64,000 nt of DNA from positions 120,303 through 184,302 of the forward strand of contig DAHXNF010000036.1 of NCBI GenBank assembly GCA_027366585.1. Reading direction: 5' to 3'. This DNA comes from Thermoplasmatales archaeon (GTDB lineage: Archaea > Thermoplasmatota > Thermoplasmata > Thermoplasmatales > Thermoplasmataceae). The translations under genes and the position numbers were made by a program. Every line of letters begins with the position of its first letter. Position 1 is the first letter of the stretch. This document shows, piece after piece, positions 12,589 to 35,093 of the stretch. The notes beneath the pieces are model-generated. The model worked only from the letters and a program-made list of their open reading frames with translations, was not told the origin of the DNA and searched no databases.

Positions 12589-14880
12589 TCACAGAGTGCA
12601 TGAACCGGATGTGCAGGCAGGATCATAGGTTGAATCAACCCTGAGCAGATTCTCCGGTGCCGAGATGATCAGTTCCTGTGTTGACTGCTTTGCATCGACT
12701 GGCTGTTTCTCCTTTGTTCCCATGTAAAGAACCTGCTGCGATTTCGATCCATCCCGGTATACTGTTATACCCTTGCAGTGCAGATCTCTTGCAAGACGAT
12801 AAGCCATTGCAATGTCATCCCTTGTTGCCGAGTTTGGCAGGTTTATTGTCTTGGAGACACCAGAATCACAGTAATTCTGGAATGCGGCCTGCATCAGCAC
12901 ATGCCACTTGAAGTCTATCTCCTGCGCTGTCAGGTAAAGTTTCTTTATATTTTCAGGGAGTGCCGTTTCCGCCAGGTTTCCGGTCTGGGCAATCTTCATC
13001 ATGAGCTTCTCTGAATACATCCCGATTTCCTTGAGGTTCTTCTCAAGATATGGATTTACTTCCAGAAGTTCCTGGCCGTCGAGCACATGGCGAACAAAAG
13101 CGAGTGCAAAAAGCGGCTCTATTGAAGAGGAACACCCCGCAATTATTGAGATCGTTCCTGTCGGAGCAATTGTCGTGGTTGTTGAGTTTCGCATCGGTTT
13201 GTTTATCGACTCCCAGTACGATCCTTTCCATCCAGGGAACATACCCCTTTCCCTGGCGAGCGTCTCGGATGCGGCATGAGACTCTTCCTGCAGGAAAGAC
13301 ATAATGTCCTCCGCCGTCTTTAGTGCCTGGGTACTGGCGTATGGGATCCCCATGGCAATCAGCGCATCTGCAAATCCCATTAGTCCAAGTCCGATCTTCC
13401 TGGTGGTCCTTGAAACCCTTTCTATTTCCTGAACAGGGAACAGGTTGGCGTCTATCACGTCATCCAGGAATCGAACAGATAACCATATGATCTCCTTCAA
13501 CCGATCATGATCTATCTTGCCATCCTTCACAAACCTAGCGAGGTTAATTGACCCAAGATTGCAAGATTCGTAAGGAAGCAGTGGCTGTTCCCCGCAAGGA
13601 TTTGTGGATTCTATGTTACCAAGGTTCTTAACTGTGTTGTGCGCGTTGATTTCATCCAGGAATATCAGTCCGGGATCGCCCGTTTTCCATGCCTGGTCTA
13701 TAATCATGTTCCAGAGATCCGATGCCTTTATCCTCCTCTCAACTGCACCAGTTCTCGGGTTCTTCAACTCCACATAATCATCCCTGTCCAGTCGATCGAA
13801 GAAATCATCGTCTATTCCGACTGATATGTTGAAGTTGCTGAGGACTGTGTTTGCAGAATCCTTTGAGGAAATGAAATCAACAATCTCAGGGTGATCGTAC
13901 CTGAGTATACCCATGTTTGCTCCTCTTCTCTTGCCACCCTGCTTGATGACGTTTGTCGTTGTATCGAAAATCGACATAAAGGAAAGTGCACCTGAAGCCA
14001 CTCCTTTTGTTGATCCAACCAGATCATCCCTTGGTCTGAGCTTGCTGAATGAAAACCCGGTGCCGCCACCAGATTTGTGTATCTTTGCCGTATCGGATAG
14101 CGTCCTGAAGATCCCGTCTATGGAATCTTCAACGGGAAGCACGAAGCATGCAGAGAGCTGCCCAAGATGTGTCCCGGCATTCATGAGAGTAGGAGAATTT
14201 GGAACAAAGTCGAGATCGTCCATAACCTTCTCAAATTTCTCAATGTACTTTGTGACATCAGCAGTGAAAGAACCGGCCTTTTCCAGGAACGATTCGAATG
14301 AGTCTTTCAGGTATCCCTCTTTCCTGAGGTTTTCAAATCCTCTCCTCAGGGTATTCACCTGCAAATCACCAAGCGCAAGTTTGGAACCGTTCTGGGGACT
14401 TCCTTTCATGTATTCATATATGTACTCAATGATTCCAACATTATAGGCCACTCTGTGGAAGAGTTCTCTCGGGGTTTCAATGACGTTTCCGACCTCATCC
14501 TTCAGGAGATATCTTGACTCCAGTACCTTTACTGCATTAAGTGATAGTTTGAGATCGTCTGTTACGCCCATGCGCATTTTTTCTTCCCTGAGTATCCTGC
14601 GGCGTTCCCTGTAAAGAATGTAAGTCTTGGCAACATCGGCAAAGCTTGTCCCGTCCCTGATGTAAGACATCAACTCGTTTTCAACAAGATCCTGTACCTC
14701 TTCAACTGAGGGTATTTGGTCGAAGGCATCAAGCCTCTTGATTACCAGATCAGTAACGGACTCTGCGTCTACCATCGTGCCTTTCTTGACGGACAGCATT
14801 GCTTTATAGACGGCCATCGTGATTTTTTCCTTGTTGAATGGGACTTGTGTTTTGTTCCTCTTTATTATATACTCCTGCAT
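12589..14880 (-). CDS. nrdJ: Adenosylcobalamin-dependent (class II) ribonucleotide reductase
   Basis: About 763 aa from ATG at 14880; N-terminal ATP-cone-like region; LSACFVLPVEDSIDGIF, STNPCGEQPLLPYESCNLGSINL, GAPTGTISIIAGCSSSIEPLFAL-type segment, C-terminal CTSGSCTL. Confidence 0.92.
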   Translation of the reverse strand: MQEYIIKRNKTQVPFNKEKITMAVYKAMLSVKKGTMVDAESVTDLVIKRLDAFDQIPSVEEVQDLVENELMSYIRDGTSFADVAKTYILYRERRRILREEKMRMGVTDDLKLSLNAVKVLESRYLLKDEVGNVIETPRELFHRVAYNVGIIEYIYEYMKGSPQNGSKLALGDLQVNTLRRGFENLRKEGYLKDSFESFLEKAGSFTADVTKYIEKFEKVMDDLDFVPNSPTLMNAGTHLGQLSACFVLPVEDSIDGIFRTLSDTAKIHKSGGGTGFSFSKLRPRDDLVGSTKGVASGALSFMSIFDTTTNVIKQGGKRRGANMGILRYDHPEIVDFISSKDSANTVLSNFNISVGIDDDFFDRLDRDDYVELKNPRTGAVERRIKASDLWNMIIDQAWKTGDPGLIFLDEINAHNTVKNLGNIESTNPCGEQPLLPYESCNLGSINLARFVKDGKIDHDRLKEIIWLSVRFLDDVIDANLFPVQEIERVSRTTRKIGLGLMGFADALIAMGIPYASTQALKTAEDIMSFLQEESHAASETLARERGMFPGWKGSYWESINKPMRNSTTTTIAPTGTISIIAGCSSSIEPLFALAFVRHVLDGQELLEVNPYLEKNLKEIGMYSEKLMMKIAQTGNLAETALPENIKKLYLTAQEIDFKWHVLMQAAFQNYCDSGVSKTINLPNSATRDDIAMAYRLARDLHCKGITVYRDGSKSQQVLYMGTKEKQPVDAKQSTQELIISAPENLLRVDSTYDPACTSGSCTL

Positions 14881-15193
14881 CTTACTCACCAATTGTCGGT
14901 ATCATATTGATCTTCTATCATCAATAAAGACTTTCTGTTACTAATTTTTGTGCAAATAGATGATCATAATAATGACCAATTGTTTAACCAGATATAGTCA
15001 CTATCAAAATCTGGCCTAAGATATTCATCCACTAGAATGAACAAAAAGATCATTGGAAAAACTTTTTTGCCCACACGGGTCAAACGAGATCTATGATTAT
15101 ACCTAAACAACTGAAATGGGAATATGATGCAACTTCTTCGCCCGAATAGAGCGGAAATGACAAAAGTTTAGATATATTATCTACTATCCAAAT

Positions 15194-29345: not shown

Positions 29346-30242
29346 TCACTCCATCATCCTTACTTCAAGAATCTGATCTGTCTTGAAGGAATTAAGTTGT
29401 AGGTAATATCTTGATGCTTCCACTATAGCTTCCATCGGTACAAGGCCAACTACCTCTGAATCCGAAATTGTTATTCCGTATCTTTGCGCCTCCAGCTTTA
29501 CTAACTCAAATGCCCTATATATGGGAGTTTTAGAGAAGTTAGTAAGATTCATTGAGATCTGGACCATGTTCTTTTCCTTGATGAAGAAAGCAAGGGATTT
29601 TACGAAGGTGAGCCCGCCGTCCTTAGCTCTCAATCCCTTGGCGATCCTCTTTCCTATATCCAAGTTTGTCGTATTTAGATTGACATTATATGCAACGAGT
29701 GGCTCCCTTGAACCTATGATGGATGCGCCGGCAGTTCCCATCAGAGAGGGCCCGAAGTCGGGTTTCCATTTCGGATCTCCAATGCTTTTTGACAGCTCCT
29801 CGTATTGAAAGTTCTTGTTTCTTATGTCTTCAAGATTTCTCCTGACATCAAGCAGTGCCGAGTTACCGTACATGTAAACTGGTATGTTAAGTTCTTCACC
29901 GATCTTCTGTCCAAGTTTTCTAGAGATTTCGATGCATTCCTTCATTGTAACATCGGAGATGGGGATGAACGGTATAACATCTGAAGCGCCGAATCTTGGA
30001 TGTTCACCATGATGCTTCGTCATATCTATCAGTCTGGCAGCGGTCCTGATTCCCTCGAATGCTGCTATTCCCACCTTGTCTGGTTCTGCTATGAATGTTA
30101 CCACTGATCTGTTATGATCGGGGTCCATTTCCCGGTCAAGAACCTTGACTCCCTTTACTGATTGTATAGAAGCCACGATATTATCCACGATATCCCTGTT
30201 TCGACCTTCGCTGAAGTTTGGTACGCATTCAACAAGCTGCAT
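29346..30242 (-). CDS. Glutamate formimidoyltransferase (FtcD N-terminal domain family)
   Basis: 298 aa; MQLVECVPNFSEGRNRDIVDNIVASI...DPDHNRSVVTFIAEPDKV...HHGEHPRFGASDVIPFIPIS. Confidence 0.92.
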   Translation of the reverse strand: MQLVECVPNFSEGRNRDIVDNIVASIQSVKGVKVLDREMDPDHNRSVVTFIAEPDKVGIAAFEGIRTAARLIDMTKHHGEHPRFGASDVIPFIPISDVTMKECIEISRKLGQKIGEELNIPVYMYGNSALLDVRRNLEDIRNKNFQYEELSKSIGDPKWKPDFGPSLMGTAGASIIGSREPLVAYNVNLNTTNLDIGKRIAKGLRAKDGGLTFVKSLAFFIKEKNMVQISMNLTNFSKTPIYRAFELVKLEAQRYGITISDSEVVGLVPMEAIVEASRYYLQLNSFKTDQILEVRMME

Positions 30243-30589: not shown

Positions 30590-31594
30590 ATGATCAACCC
30601 GGCAGAATCAGGACTGAACTTGCAGCAAAGACTCACAAGATCTTCTCTCTTTAACGAACTAGGAGACAGGTGGATTAGCAGGAGAAGAATAGTGGCTGGT
30701 AGCAGCACAAACCTGATGGAGCTGGGGGAAATCAAGTACCAGGACATTTACAATTACTTTGCAAGAATGAGCAGCATTCGCTGGACTTCTGATGAATTCG
30801 ATCTGGCGAAGGATCAGAAGGACTATTCACAGATATCTGAAGTTGAGAAGAAGACAGTTGAAAGAGTGCTTGCTTCTTTGGTTTTTCTAGAGAGTGAGTT
30901 ACTAAACAACTATTATATTATATTGCCATATTTTACGGCACCTGAGTGCTACCTTGTTGGGTCTGCTATAATAGGGCAAACTGCCAACCATACAAATGCT
31001 CTATCGGGCATAGTAAGGAGCGTTGTGGCACAGCAGGAGAGAGACCCGCTGTACAACTCCTGGAGAACCATTGAACATTTGAGATTAAGGAATAAGTCGA
31101 TTAATACCAGATTTGTTGAATTTACAAATAAGCCCCTTTTACTGAATTTCCTGGACGATCTGTTGGTAAGCGTATTTATACAGCTTGTAATAGTTCCATC
31201 TGAACTCAGCCTCATCTACTCATCTACAAGAAAGGGGAGGATGCTGGGTACTTTCGAAATATTAAGACGAATACAGCGTGATCTCGATCTTCATTCGCAA
31301 ACTATTGTTTCTATTTACAGAAAGCTACTTGAGGAGAATTCCACCATTGCCTCCACGGAGTTGAAGGATCACATCCTTAAGATGATTCGTGATCTCACAA
31401 ACCTCGAAACGGATTTCACCCAGTTTCTCTCAGAAGGAATGATCCCGGGACTCAACAATCTGATGATAGCAAAATTCTCGCAAGCCCAGGCAAACAAGGT
31501 GTTGAAGATTCTCTCGATGGAGCCACTGTTCCCAGGTGTAGGCGGCAATCCTATTCCATGGTTTGAGAGTTATTCAGAAATAAGGACTCGCTGA
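30590..31594 (+). CDS. R2-fold paralog of ribonucleotide reductase small subunit, predicted not to form a normal dimetal/Tyr radical site
   Basis: 334 aa; aligns without gaps over long stretches to the beta subunit at 34035-35093 (FTAPE, IQRDxxxH, PWFES); glutamate ligands and radical Tyr substituted; ends right after NPIPWFESYSEIRTR. Confidence 0.8.
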   Translation: MINPAESGLNLQQRLTRSSLFNELGDRWISRRRIVAGSSTNLMELGEIKYQDIYNYFARMSSIRWTSDEFDLAKDQKDYSQISEVEKKTVERVLASLVFLESELLNNYYIILPYFTAPECYLVGSAIIGQTANHTNALSGIVRSVVAQQERDPLYNSWRTIEHLRLRNKSINTRFVEFTNKPLLLNFLDDLLVSVFIQLVIVPSELSLIYSSTRKGRMLGTFEILRRIQRDLDLHSQTIVSIYRKLLEENSTIASTELKDHILKMIRDLTNLETDFTQFLSEGMIPGLNNLMIAKFSQAQANKVLKILSMEPLFPGVGGNPIPWFESYSEIRTR

Positions 31595-31783
31595 ATTAGC
31601 CTAATTTTCAATTTGTGTATCCAGACATGGTAATGATATATAATCATGATTGGTCACATATCAGGTAAAAAAAAACAACTTATATCTTAGAACATTGAAA
31701 AAGTTACAAACATTTGCAGTATCTCATGAACCAAATGTTCCTAAATATATGCGATTGGAGGGTGAAATTGATTGGAATTTATA

Positions 31784-34033
31784 ATGAAACCGACCAAGGT
31801 TATAAACCGCGAAGGGAAGGAAGTACCTATTGATGTTACAAAGATCAGGTCAGTGATAGAGAAGGCCTGCCAGGGCCTAAGGGTTGATCCAATGGAGCTA
31901 GAACTCGACTCACAGATCCATTTCACCGATCGGATTTCGACAAAGACAATCCAGGAGACTCTGATCAAGGTTGCAAACGAGAAAGTAAAGATGTCAGAGC
32001 CTGACTGGACATTCGTCGCTGCAAGGCTCCTATTGCATCATCTCTACAAGGAGTCATCCAGGAAGCGTGGCGAACCCTACGGCAATTTCTGGAGCCTGGT
32101 ATCCCATTTAGTTTCCGACGGGAGATATGACTCCCGAGTCCTAAGCGAATATTCAAGGGAAGATTTTGAGATGTTTGAGAAGGCACTAAGACCCGAACGG
32201 GACCTGCTACTGGGTTATCCAGGGTTGAAGCATCTGGTTGATCGTTATGCGATCCGCACTAAGGACGAAATTTGGTTCGAGCTTCCGCAGGATGTGTTCA
32301 TGGGCGTCGCAATATACCTCGCCCTGGCGGAGGAGAAGACTAAGAGAGTATACTGGGCGCTAAAGTTCTACGAGGTATTATCCAATCTTTACATTACGAT
32401 GGCGACTCCCACACTGGCTCAGGCACGCAGGCCTAAGGGGCAGCTCAGCTCATGCTTCATTGACAGCCCCGATGATTCAATCAATGGAATATTTGATGGA
32501 TTAACTGCCTTCGCGCAGATCTCCCAGAATGGCGGTGGAATGGGTGTCTACTTAGGCCACATTCGCGGTCTTGGAAGCTCAATCAGGGACTATGCCGGCG
32601 TCGGAAGTGGCGTTATCCCCTGGGTAAGGTTGTACAATGATACAGCAGTTTCTGTGAACCAGCTTGGCCAGAGAGCCGGCGCCGCAAGTATATGGCTGGA
32701 TATCTGGCACACAGATATAGTGGATTTCCTTGATCTAAAGACAAACAATGGAGATGAAAGGAGGAAAGCGCATGACATATTTCCAGGTGTGTGCGTTCCT
32801 GATCTCTTCTATAAGAGACTGGAAAAGGGTGAGAGTTGGTACCTCTTTGACCCACATGAGGTGCGAATCAGGAAAGGGTGGAGACTAGAGGAATCATGGG
32901 GAGAAGAGTTCGAGAGTAGATATATGGAATGCGTCTCCGACCCATCGGTTCCCAGAAAGGAGATCAGTTCTCTTGAACTGATGGGACTGATACTCAAGAG
33001 CCTGTACGAAACTGGCGGACCATTTTTCTTCAACCGGGATACTGTAAACAGGCTCAACCCAAACAAGCACGCAGGAGTCATCTATTCCTCGAACCTCTGC
33101 ACGGAGATAACACAGAACCAGTCTTCCACTGTCAGGACAAATGAGAACGTTTCCGATGACATGATAACCCTTCAGTACAGGACAGGAGACATGGTGGTTT
33201 GCAACCTGTCATCCATCAATCTTGGTAGGACAAACACACCTGAACTCCTTTCGGAGGTAATCCCGGTGCAGGTAAGAATGCTTGATAATGTGATAACCCT
33301 GAATAACCTGCCGGTCCCTCAGGCTACCATGACAAACATGAAGTACAGGGCAATTGGCGTGGGAGTGTCAGGATATCATCAGCTGCTTGTGCAGAACGGC
33401 ATAGACTGGGAATCTGAGGAGCATGTCGCGTTCGCAGACTCCCTGTTCGAGCACATAAACTACGTGGCTGTCAACGCCAGCTGTGATCTTGCCGCGGAGA
33501 GAGGATCATACCCTCTGTTCAAGGGCAGCGACTGGGAATCTGGAGAGTATTTCAGCCTACGTGGATATAAGGATCAAAAATGGTTAGATCTGGCAGCAAA
33601 GGTAAAGGAGAAGGGCATAAGAAACGGGTACCTTATCGCAATAGCACCGACGGGTAGCACCAGCGTCATAGCCGGATCTACTGCAAGCGTAGACCCGATA
33701 TTCAAGCCTGTATTCATTGAAGAGAAGAAGAGCTTCGTCATCAAGAGGGTCGCCCCGGAACTGACCGCCGAAAATGCTCGACTATACAAGGAGGCGCATT
33801 CAATCGACCAGTCATGGAGCATTAAGGCAGCCGCGGCCAGGCAGCGGCACATAGACCAGTCCCAGTCCCTCAACCTCTATGCTACACAGGATCTCGATGA
33901 AGAGAAGTTTCTTAGCCTATACTATGATGCTTGGAAGCTTGGAGTCAAGACACTGTACTATTTCAGGAATTACACAAAGGACGAGGATGAAGTGAAACAG
34001 GATGCAGAGGCATGCGAGTCATGCCAGGCATGA
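31784..34033 (+). CDS. nrdA: Class I ribonucleotide reductase alpha (large) subunit
   Basis: About 749 aa; ATP cone at N-terminus; LSSCFIDSPDDSINGIF, SSNLCTEITQ, VVCNLSSINLG, IAIAPTGSTSVIAGSTASVDPIF, KTLYYFRNYT, C-terminal CESC. Confidence 0.92.
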   Translation: MKPTKVINREGKEVPIDVTKIRSVIEKACQGLRVDPMELELDSQIHFTDRISTKTIQETLIKVANEKVKMSEPDWTFVAARLLLHHLYKESSRKRGEPYGNFWSLVSHLVSDGRYDSRVLSEYSREDFEMFEKALRPERDLLLGYPGLKHLVDRYAIRTKDEIWFELPQDVFMGVAIYLALAEEKTKRVYWALKFYEVLSNLYITMATPTLAQARRPKGQLSSCFIDSPDDSINGIFDGLTAFAQISQNGGGMGVYLGHIRGLGSSIRDYAGVGSGVIPWVRLYNDTAVSVNQLGQRAGAASIWLDIWHTDIVDFLDLKTNNGDERRKAHDIFPGVCVPDLFYKRLEKGESWYLFDPHEVRIRKGWRLEESWGEEFESRYMECVSDPSVPRKEISSLELMGLILKSLYETGGPFFFNRDTVNRLNPNKHAGVIYSSNLCTEITQNQSSTVRTNENVSDDMITLQYRTGDMVVCNLSSINLGRTNTPELLSEVIPVQVRMLDNVITLNNLPVPQATMTNMKYRAIGVGVSGYHQLLVQNGIDWESEEHVAFADSLFEHINYVAVNASCDLAAERGSYPLFKGSDWESGEYFSLRGYKDQKWLDLAAKVKEKGIRNGYLIAIAPTGSTSVIAGSTASVDPIFKPVFIEEKKSFVIKRVAPELTAENARLYKEAHSIDQSWSIKAAAARQRHIDQSQSLNLYATQDLDEEKFLSLYYDAWKLGVKTLYYFRNYTKDEDEVKQDAEACESCQA

Positions 34034-34034
34034 G

Positions 34035-35093
34035 ATGAAGAATATGCAGAAGAAATTATTGTTTAACCCTGATGGAACAAGGGATTTAAAGTTCCAGAGG
34101 CTAATTGGCGGTAAGTCTACCAACCTGATCGAATTTGCAAACGTGAAGTACGACTGGGCAGAACAACTATACAGGAAGATGCGCCAGTTCTTCTGGATAC
34201 CTGATGAGGTTCCGCTCGGAGACGACAAGAGGCAGTATCCAAAGCTCACGGAAGCCGAGCAGACTGCGTACAAGAAGACACTGGCATTCCTGATCTTCCT
34301 GGATAGTATACAAGTGGATAACCTTGGCGCCCTCGCACTATATATTACAGCGCCTGAAGTTGTAGCCTGCCTCAAGACCCAGGCATTCTTTGAAACGATA
34401 CACGCTCAGAGCTATGATTACCTCCTAACGTCGGTGGTTGATTCGCTGACCAGGGATGAGGTTTATACTATGTGGAAGGATGATGCCAACCTGCTCACGA
34501 GAAACAAGTTCATAACAGACCAGTACCAGGAGTTCATTGAAAATCCAACCGAGCGTGCTTTTCTCAGATCTTGCATGGCCGATTACCTGCTGGAGGGCGT
34601 ATACTTCTACAGTGGGTTTGCCTTCTTCTATGCCCTTGGAAGACAGGACAAAATGGGAGGTACTGTGAGCCTGATCCGCCTGATCCAGAGGGATGAAAAC
34701 ACACACCTTGCCCTTTTTACCCATATACTTAGGACGTTGGCCGACGAAAACCAGGAGTGGTTTACCAGCGGTATACGGAATGAGCTGACTTCGATGCTCA
34801 AGACCGCCGTCGAGCATGAAATATCATGGGGAAAATATGTCACAAGGAACCAGATCCTTGGTCTTTCCGACACAATCATAGAAAACTACATAAAGTATCT
34901 TGGAAATATGCGTGCGGAATCGATCGGACTTGAACCACCGTATGAGAAAATCAAGCATCCAATGCCCTGGGTTGACAGTTTTGCAGCCATGAACTCCACC
35001 AAGACAGATTTCTTTGAAAGAAGAGTAACAAACTACCAGAAGTTCAGCGGATCAATGAATTTCGATAAGTTGAAGCCTCCGGGCTCCACCTGA
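34035..35093 (+). CDS. nrdB: Class I ribonucleotide reductase beta (small, R2) subunit, canonical
   Basis: Start ATG at 34035; FFETIHAQSYDY (E, H, radical Y), ADYLLEGVYFY (E), LIQRDENTHLALF (E, H), LGDDKRQY (D), C-terminal FFERRVTNYQKFSGSMNF. Confidence 0.92.
   Translation: MKNMQKKLLFNPDGTRDLKFQRLIGGKSTNLIEFANVKYDWAEQLYRKMRQFFWIPDEVPLGDDKRQYPKLTEAEQTAYKKTLAFLIFLDSIQVDNLGALALYITAPEVVACLKTQAFFETIHAQSYDYLLTSVVDSLTRDEVYTMWKDDANLLTRNKFITDQYQEFIENPTERAFLRSCMADYLLEGVYFYSGFAFFYALGRQDKMGGTVSLIRLIQRDENTHLALFTHILRTLADENQEWFTSGIRNELTSMLKTAVEHEISWGKYVTRNQILGLSDTIIENYIKYLGNMRAESIGLEPPYEKIKHPMPWVDSFAAMNSTKTDFFERRVTNYQKFSGSMNFDKLKPPGST

Follow-up and report, generated by a model that had tools for sequence, protein, structure and literature searches.

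An R2-fold paralog without a complete metal site or C-terminal tail, encoded beside a class I ribonucleotide reductase in one family of archaea: a candidate inert partner subunit

Genes and features of the locus

The window analyzed here, a 64,000-nucleotide stretch from a Thermoplasmatales archaeon (assembly GCA_027366585.1, contig DAHXNF010000036.1), comes from a genome of 62 contigs that is 85% complete and to which GenBank MAGs under the names Thermoplasmata archaeon or Candidatus Thermoplasmatota archaeon are closely related; affiliation with the Thermoplasmata suggests that the host is acidophilic. On the forward strand of the window, in the order β′, nrdA, nrdB, lie the genes for a paralog of the R2 subunit (β′) and for the α and β subunits of a class I ribonucleotide reductase (RNR):

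12589-14892, minus strand: NrdJ, class II B12-dependent RNR
29346..30242, minus strand: ftcD-type formiminotransferase, a divergent neighbor that serves as context marker
30590..31594, plus strand: β′, R2-fold paralog of 334 amino acids without metal site or C-terminal tail (open reading frame, Pfam, phmmer, alignment and predicted fold)
31772..34033, plus strand: nrdA, class I RNR α with one ATP-cone and a C-terminal CEACESC (start TTG 31772 or ATG 31784)
34035..35093, plus strand: nrdB, canonical β with six ligands, radical Tyr Y127, W48 and Tyr356 equivalents, and C-terminal tail

An earlier note on this DNA described the β′ gene (30590-31594) as having a full-length, stop-free core and lying next to a complete class I RNR, and both statements hold: the frame of 334 amino acids is intact, and a full nrdA, whose product scores 580.8 bits on TIGR02506 (cut-off 341) as a class I α, is found together with a canonical β just downstream. 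Divergently upstream of β′ are genes of the ftcD and cyclodeaminase types, the former being kept beside β′ in most genera. TATA-like stretches can be recognized by eye in the gap between β′ and nrdA (31595-31771), as can a Shine-Dalgarno-like GGAGGGTG; an additional, separate promoter for nrdA is therefore possible. In several relatives (G014, G018, G019, G035 and G103), nrdJ is located directly 3′ of nrdB in the class I operon; as both classes are encoded, these archaea possess oxygen-dependent and oxygen-independent RNRs, sometimes side by side.

β′ matches PF00268 over its full length (161.8 bits vs. a cut-off of 33.6; E = 3e-47), and a phmmer comparison with R2 proteins in the PDB identifies 7ail as the best match (E = 1.4e-40). 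The AlphaFold2 model, with a mean pLDDT of 84.8, is a confident R2 fold, for which Foldseek also returns 7ail as best match (probability 1.00, TM 0.84), the top matches all being R2 proteins. β′ is 27% identical to the neighboring β, with which it can be aligned across the whole core, and on the NrdB equivalog model NF007184 (cut-off 310) it falls below the cut-off (212 bits), whereas β lies above it (445 bits). The nearest relatives of both proteins are NrdBs of the Aquifex / Clostridium botulinum / Alicyclobacillus type (NF007184; 7ail, 6zjk), and in sequence β′ is closest to these rather than to NrdF; unlike β′, however, these NrdBs have full ligands, Tyr and tail. An R2lox identity was considered and excluded, as R2lox models are absent among the β′ profile matches at E ≤ 0.001, and intact Mn/Fe ligands are missing.

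Metal site, radical site and C-terminal tail

In place of the D/E-E-H-E-E-H ligand set of a functional R2, the β′ of the window contains E/T/H/Q/L/H:

30890..30892, plus strand: E101, which truly occupies the first-ligand position (E. coli D84); a Glu in 17 of 18 β′ sequences, Asp in all β
30980..30982, plus strand: T131, replacing a ligand Glu (E. coli E115)
30989..30991, plus strand: H134 (E. coli H118), invariant in 18 of 18 β′ sequences
31001..31003, plus strand: L138, replacing the radical Tyr (E. coli Y122); the Leu is confined to the window's genus, other β′ having Tyr
31181..31183, plus strand: Q198, replacing a ligand Glu (E. coli E204)
31280..31285, plus strand: D231 (E. coli D237, invariant) and L232, which stands for the bridging Glu (E. 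coli E238)
31292..31294, plus strand: H235 (E. coli H241); conserved as His in the window's genus and in part of the others, elsewhere Q or N

Most of these assignments had been made in the earlier note. Its four losses (E115 to T131, E204 to Q198, E238 to L232, Y122 to L138) are reproduced by the alignment, as are the two retained His (H118 as H134, H241 as H235). Every ligand position lies in the same predicted helix of the two proteins, the helices concerned being αB (residues 84-114 of β′, 73-101 of β), αC (118-145 and 107-135), αE (184-213 and 173-203) and αF (219-249 and 208-238), and on structural alignment the lost positions remain without a Glu or Tyr. The Asp said to be kept as a ligand, D75 (codon 30812), was wrongly assigned: it aligns with D64 of β, a conserved non-ligand Asp equivalent to H_2 / ScY2_118, whereas the first-ligand position (E. 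coli D84) is H_5 / ScY2_145 (PMC3824934). The residue at that position is E101, in the motif FLES, which aligns with FLDS of β. Of the statement that three carboxylates are gone while the Asp and two His remain, the losses and both His therefore stand, and the remaining carboxylate is a Glu; since three of the four ligand carboxylates are still gone, this alters the wording rather than the main conclusion.

The full six-ligand set occurs in none of the 18 β′ sequences, and the full site is present in all 20 β sequences, although the tail of one of them, from G011 and of poor quality, could not be aligned. A Glu at E115 is kept in four of the 18 β′ sequences and one at E204 only in G007, position 101 is Thr in the β′ of G109, and the W48 equivalent (W65 in the window) is F, Y or S in most other β′ proteins. 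The T/Q/L pattern with Leu in place of the radical Tyr, whose conservation had been proposed as a check, is thus characteristic of one genus and is not family-wide. What is constant throughout the family is the loss of a working diiron/Tyr site, with I, L or V at the E238 position in 18 of 18 sequences, and the loss of the tail. Neither the missing tail nor the retention of Tyr in related genera, which differ at other ligands, had been recognized previously.

β′ ends at PIPWFESYSEIRTR, with the last residue of the core, and both the Tyr356 equivalent and the α-binding peptide correspond to a gap in 18 of 18 β′ sequences. In the Aquifex R2, residues 328-350 are disordered (PMC8772380); as residue 328 of that protein aligns with residue 332 of β′, which stops at residue 334, the end of β′ coincides with the loss of order in solved R2s, leaving a folded core without the flexible tail. 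Such a protein would be unable to build a diiron or dimanganese center and, in the window's genus, would be unable to hold a Tyr radical. Lacking the flexible tail that bears the Tyr356 equivalent and the α-binding peptide, it cannot send a radical to α.

Distribution, origin and selection

A profile built from 13 β′ sequences separates β′ (438-556 bits) cleanly from β (204-252 bits) and identifies 18 β′ copies in 17 genomes, belonging to five genera of one family, so that the search for orthologs suggested earlier has a clear outcome. A β was also detected in 15 of these 17 genomes, the other two being 76-77% complete. β′ was undetected in genera g2 (four genomes) and g7 (one genome), both of which have α and β, indicating that β can work without β′. 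Across 400 genomes of the class, no β′ was found outside the family; the search there yielded one contig only (L088; G076:C56), in a genome of another family, whose β is identical to that of G001 and is followed by the same DUF973 gene, which reflects either misbinning or recent transfer. At the level of the phylum, only distant R2s were retrieved, mostly from one other family.

The order β′-α-β on one strand was observed in G001, G014, G018, G019, G025, G035, G103 and G109, and contig ends cut the β′ loci of G034, G102 and G108. Wherever the contig extends, α and then β follow β′ on the same strand, an arrangement kept even between genera with β′ proteins that are just 33-48% identical. The only exception is G007, whose β′ (L082:2249-3244), the most divergent of all, adjoins cutA and a DNA methylase; besides its Glu at E204, this protein has His at E115 and Asn at H241, and α, β and NrdJ were not found in the 76% complete genome. 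The α subunits themselves vary: the window's genus and G025 have a single ATP-cone, while the NrdA of most other genera (L072-L081) contains two tandem ATP-cones in open frames of 880-908 aa, and an apparent small ATP-cone gene between β′ and α in relatives proved to be the first, N-terminal cone of this longer α. Cone number does not track β′ presence, two-cone αs occurring both with and without β′.

In phylogenetic trees, which were built without eukaryotic sequences, β′ forms one clade (100/100) apart from the β clade (100/100; 20 β rows), and groups near R2s of the Bacillota/Aquifex type. A single clade across five genera points to one origin and long retention. The β of g2 nests inside the β of β′-bearing genera (99/99), and g2 has therefore most likely lost β′. 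In a tree with more outgroups, the one-clade test for the point where β′ joins gave p = 0.117, and branches were long; duplication inside these archaea, rather than acquisition of an already divergent gene, is likely but not proven. An R2 encoded on a plasmid of Alicyclobacillus dauci is 55% identical to the β of the window and 32% identical to β′, and this resemblance of β to a Bacillota plasmid R2 points to a bacterial, namely Bacillota, source of the archaeal class I RNR. The plasmid gene belongs to an nrdA-nrdB pair (L129:2673-6035) with a canonical β; as it is the best plasmid match, a plasmid-borne β′ was discounted. A viral origin and an identity as a defense-system protein were also set aside: IMG/VR scans with β′ and β gave no β′-like locus, phage R2s match β′ at only about 27%, and β′ has no PADLOC match.

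Estimates of dN/dS (NG86) are 0.024-0.062 for usable β′ pairs (0.02-0.07 overall), pairs with the window β′ itself being saturated at synonymous sites, vs. 0.005-0.018 for β. β′ is thus under clear purifying selection, weaker than that acting on β, and evolves several times faster. Values far below 1 had been named in the earlier note as a further check, and together with orthologs in 17 genomes they bear out its view that this is not a decaying gene.

Constraint is also distributed differently in the two proteins. The cofactor shell of β is its most conserved part (mean entropy 0.04, vs. 0.74 for the C-terminal part), whereas in β′ the order is reversed (1.63 vs. 1.07; Mann-Whitney p = 0.0005), and an N-terminal strip (residues 18-41; mean entropy 1.01) is as constrained as the C-terminal part, which includes the following feature:

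31403..31570, plus strand: β′ residues 272-327, constrained C-terminal helices that end where the flexible tail of an R2 would begin

Among 13 β′ sequences, 32 columns are invariant, and the near-invariants specific to β′ are K88, S96, E205, T274, D275, E282, M284, P286, F296, Q298, G316 and F325; those from T274 onward, with the addition of K306, are the β′-specific invariants listed for residues 272-327. The moved constraint and the new invariants of the C-terminal helices fit selection for folding and binding rather than for radical chemistry.

Proposed role and alternatives

On balance, we lean toward the view that β′ is a catalytically dead, dedicated partner of the neighboring RNR, with a putative β-β′ heterodimer as the leading form. 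This partner reading is supported by what β′ has lost and by the fold that it retains, by its descent from one origin, by purifying selection and the shift in constraint, and by its linkage to the operon, and the occurrence of β′ only where a class I RNR occurs (15 of 17 genomes with a detected β) is counted in its favor; against it are the lack of β′ in g2 and g7, the faster evolution of β′, the G007 locus without α or β, and the missing α-binding tail. The proposal that the paralog is a scaffold, heterodimer partner or regulator was already part of the earlier note; it gains from the orthologs, the low dN/dS and the failure of any Glu or Tyr to reappear, and loses its Asp assignment and a family-wide T/Q/L and Leu pattern.

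The R2-R2 interface would be the obvious surface for reuse, giving a β-β′ dimer that would dock on α via the tail of β. Because β supplies the sole tail in such a dimer, it would both make and deliver the radical. β′ may stabilize β, help to assemble its cofactor, or set the stoichiometry or allosteric state of the complex, a helper role of the kind proposed for yeast Rnr4 with Rnr2. More tentatively, β′ could be a non-redox RNR subunit in which a new conserved face controls the assembly or allostery of the β-α complex; this face would possibly consist of the N-terminal strip and the C-terminal helices, making β′ a subunit type undescribed for archaea or bacteria.

Yeast Rnr2/Rnr4 and Plasmodium PfR2/PfR4 form α2ββ′ complexes (PMC3824934). 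Like β′, Saccharomyces cerevisiae Rnr4 (Y4) has an R2 fold with incomplete diiron-site residues and coexists with a canonical β (PMC3824934), a likeness that consists in one canonical β plus an R2 paralog without a complete metal site. The two pairs probably work on one principle, an active small subunit combined with an inert one; in contrast to Rnr4, which is eukaryotic and of a separate lineage, the archaeal β′ has no C-terminal tail, and its gene shares an operon with those of α and β. Apicomplexan R2_e2 / PfR4 resembles β′ in being a lineage-restricted, fast-evolving R2 clade beside one orthodox R2, in which some members have lost the radical Tyr and the Tyr356 equivalent is missing (PMC3824934). 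R2_e2 nevertheless keeps the iron ligands and the C-terminal α-binding motif, whereas archaeal β′ has lost three of four carboxylates and the whole tail; lacking the α-binding tail kept by its apicomplexan counterpart, β′ does not simply repeat the apicomplexan arrangement. A β-β′ heterodimer would most likely be convergent with yeast Rnr4 and Plasmodium R4, inert R2 partners being known, apart from this candidate, solely from yeast and from malaria-type parasites. No prokaryotic inert full-length R2 paralog was found in the open-access literature searched, a provisional result given that scope; the nearest prokaryotic case is a 125-aa truncated nrdB in Liberibacter, for which heterodimers have only been speculated (PMC5154197).

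If β′ pairs with β, the complex would represent a heterodimeric R2 in a prokaryote that arose independently of those in yeast and Apicomplexa, and would show that evolution can fix, at the genetic level, a dimer with a single radical-bearing R2 chain, which bears on half-site behavior in class I enzymes. The system is small, comes from probably acidophilic archaea, is contained in one operon and differs between genera, with β′ naturally lost in places, and is therefore well suited to testing whether an inert R2 serves stability, iron loading or allostery.

Among the alternatives, the one that survives best, although we consider it unlikely, is that β′ regulates or chaperones the same RNR without a stable β-β′ dimer, for example as an iron-loading or folding helper for β, or as a binder of the ATP-cone-bearing α that tunes its oligomeric state. 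Operon linkage and purifying selection fit this role equally well, the β′-specific invariants of the C-terminal helices suggest a surface unlike that of β, and loss of the tail takes away the standard contact with α. However, reuse of the R2-R2 interface is the simplest explanation for an R2 core that has been retained whole, and regulation through α is at odds with an ATP-cone number that does not follow β′.

Less probable again is that the R2 fold has taken on a task outside RNR (a new ligand, a single-metal site or a scaffold) and remains in the operon for historical reasons. All β′ sequences share H134 and D231, and nearly all share E101; these buried polar residues could accommodate a single metal ion or a small ligand. 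In addition, the β′ of G007 is located away from α and β, and the conserved patches of β′ differ from those of β. Yet β′ is restricted to a family bearing class I RNR and almost always lies beside α and β, the β′ of G109 has Thr at position 101, and the H118-D237 pair is already part of a structural hydrogen-bond network in ordinary R2s.

Class Ie R2 proteins (R2e; QSK and VPK variants) are metal-free, carry Tyr as DOPA and Lys at the third position, and need NrdI (PMC11846895). The same three ligand glutamates are replaced in these proteins and in β′, with Asp/Glu and both His remaining, and relatives such as G025 and G014 also keep the Tyr, so that β′ might be a metal-free radical generator with a modified Tyr, at least in Tyr-keeping genera. 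We give this reading very little credence, and for the window protein it is refuted by the Leu at the Tyr position. Class Ie R2 is a working β, whereas β′ of the window has no Tyr, Lys, NrdI or tail and is accompanied by a complete β; its triplet is TQL, not QSK or VPK, and across the 18 β′ sequences the third Glu position is I, L or V and never Lys, the W48 equivalent is mostly F, Y or S, and the Tyr356 equivalent and tail are absent throughout. Sequence affinity to the 7ail/6zjk/Alicyclobacillus type of NrdB, and not to NrdF, also speaks against it. NrdI (PF07972) was found in none of 61 genomes of the family and was detected in three controls; the absence of NrdI and of a class Ie signature argues that β′ is not a metal-free radical generator.

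A decaying duplicate not yet broken, to which the freely varying cofactor shell, a dN/dS about four times that of β and the probable loss of β′ in g2 might point, is equally implausible and is refuted by 18 stop-free frames in five genera, low dN/dS, 32 invariant columns in 13 sequences and reordered constraint.

Some related loci show further rearrangements. G035 has a second β′-α pair (L078; G035:C31), whose β′ shares 97% identity with the β′ of G108, a genome of another genus, and which represents either a misbinned contig or a recent transfer. In G109, a TnpB-like ORF of 424 aa with a zinc-finger motif recognized by eye (L080:5413-6684) lies between β′ and α, and in G034 an insertion of ~0.9 kb, perhaps a mobile element or an intein, interrupts an nrdJ match (L084:3505-4443).
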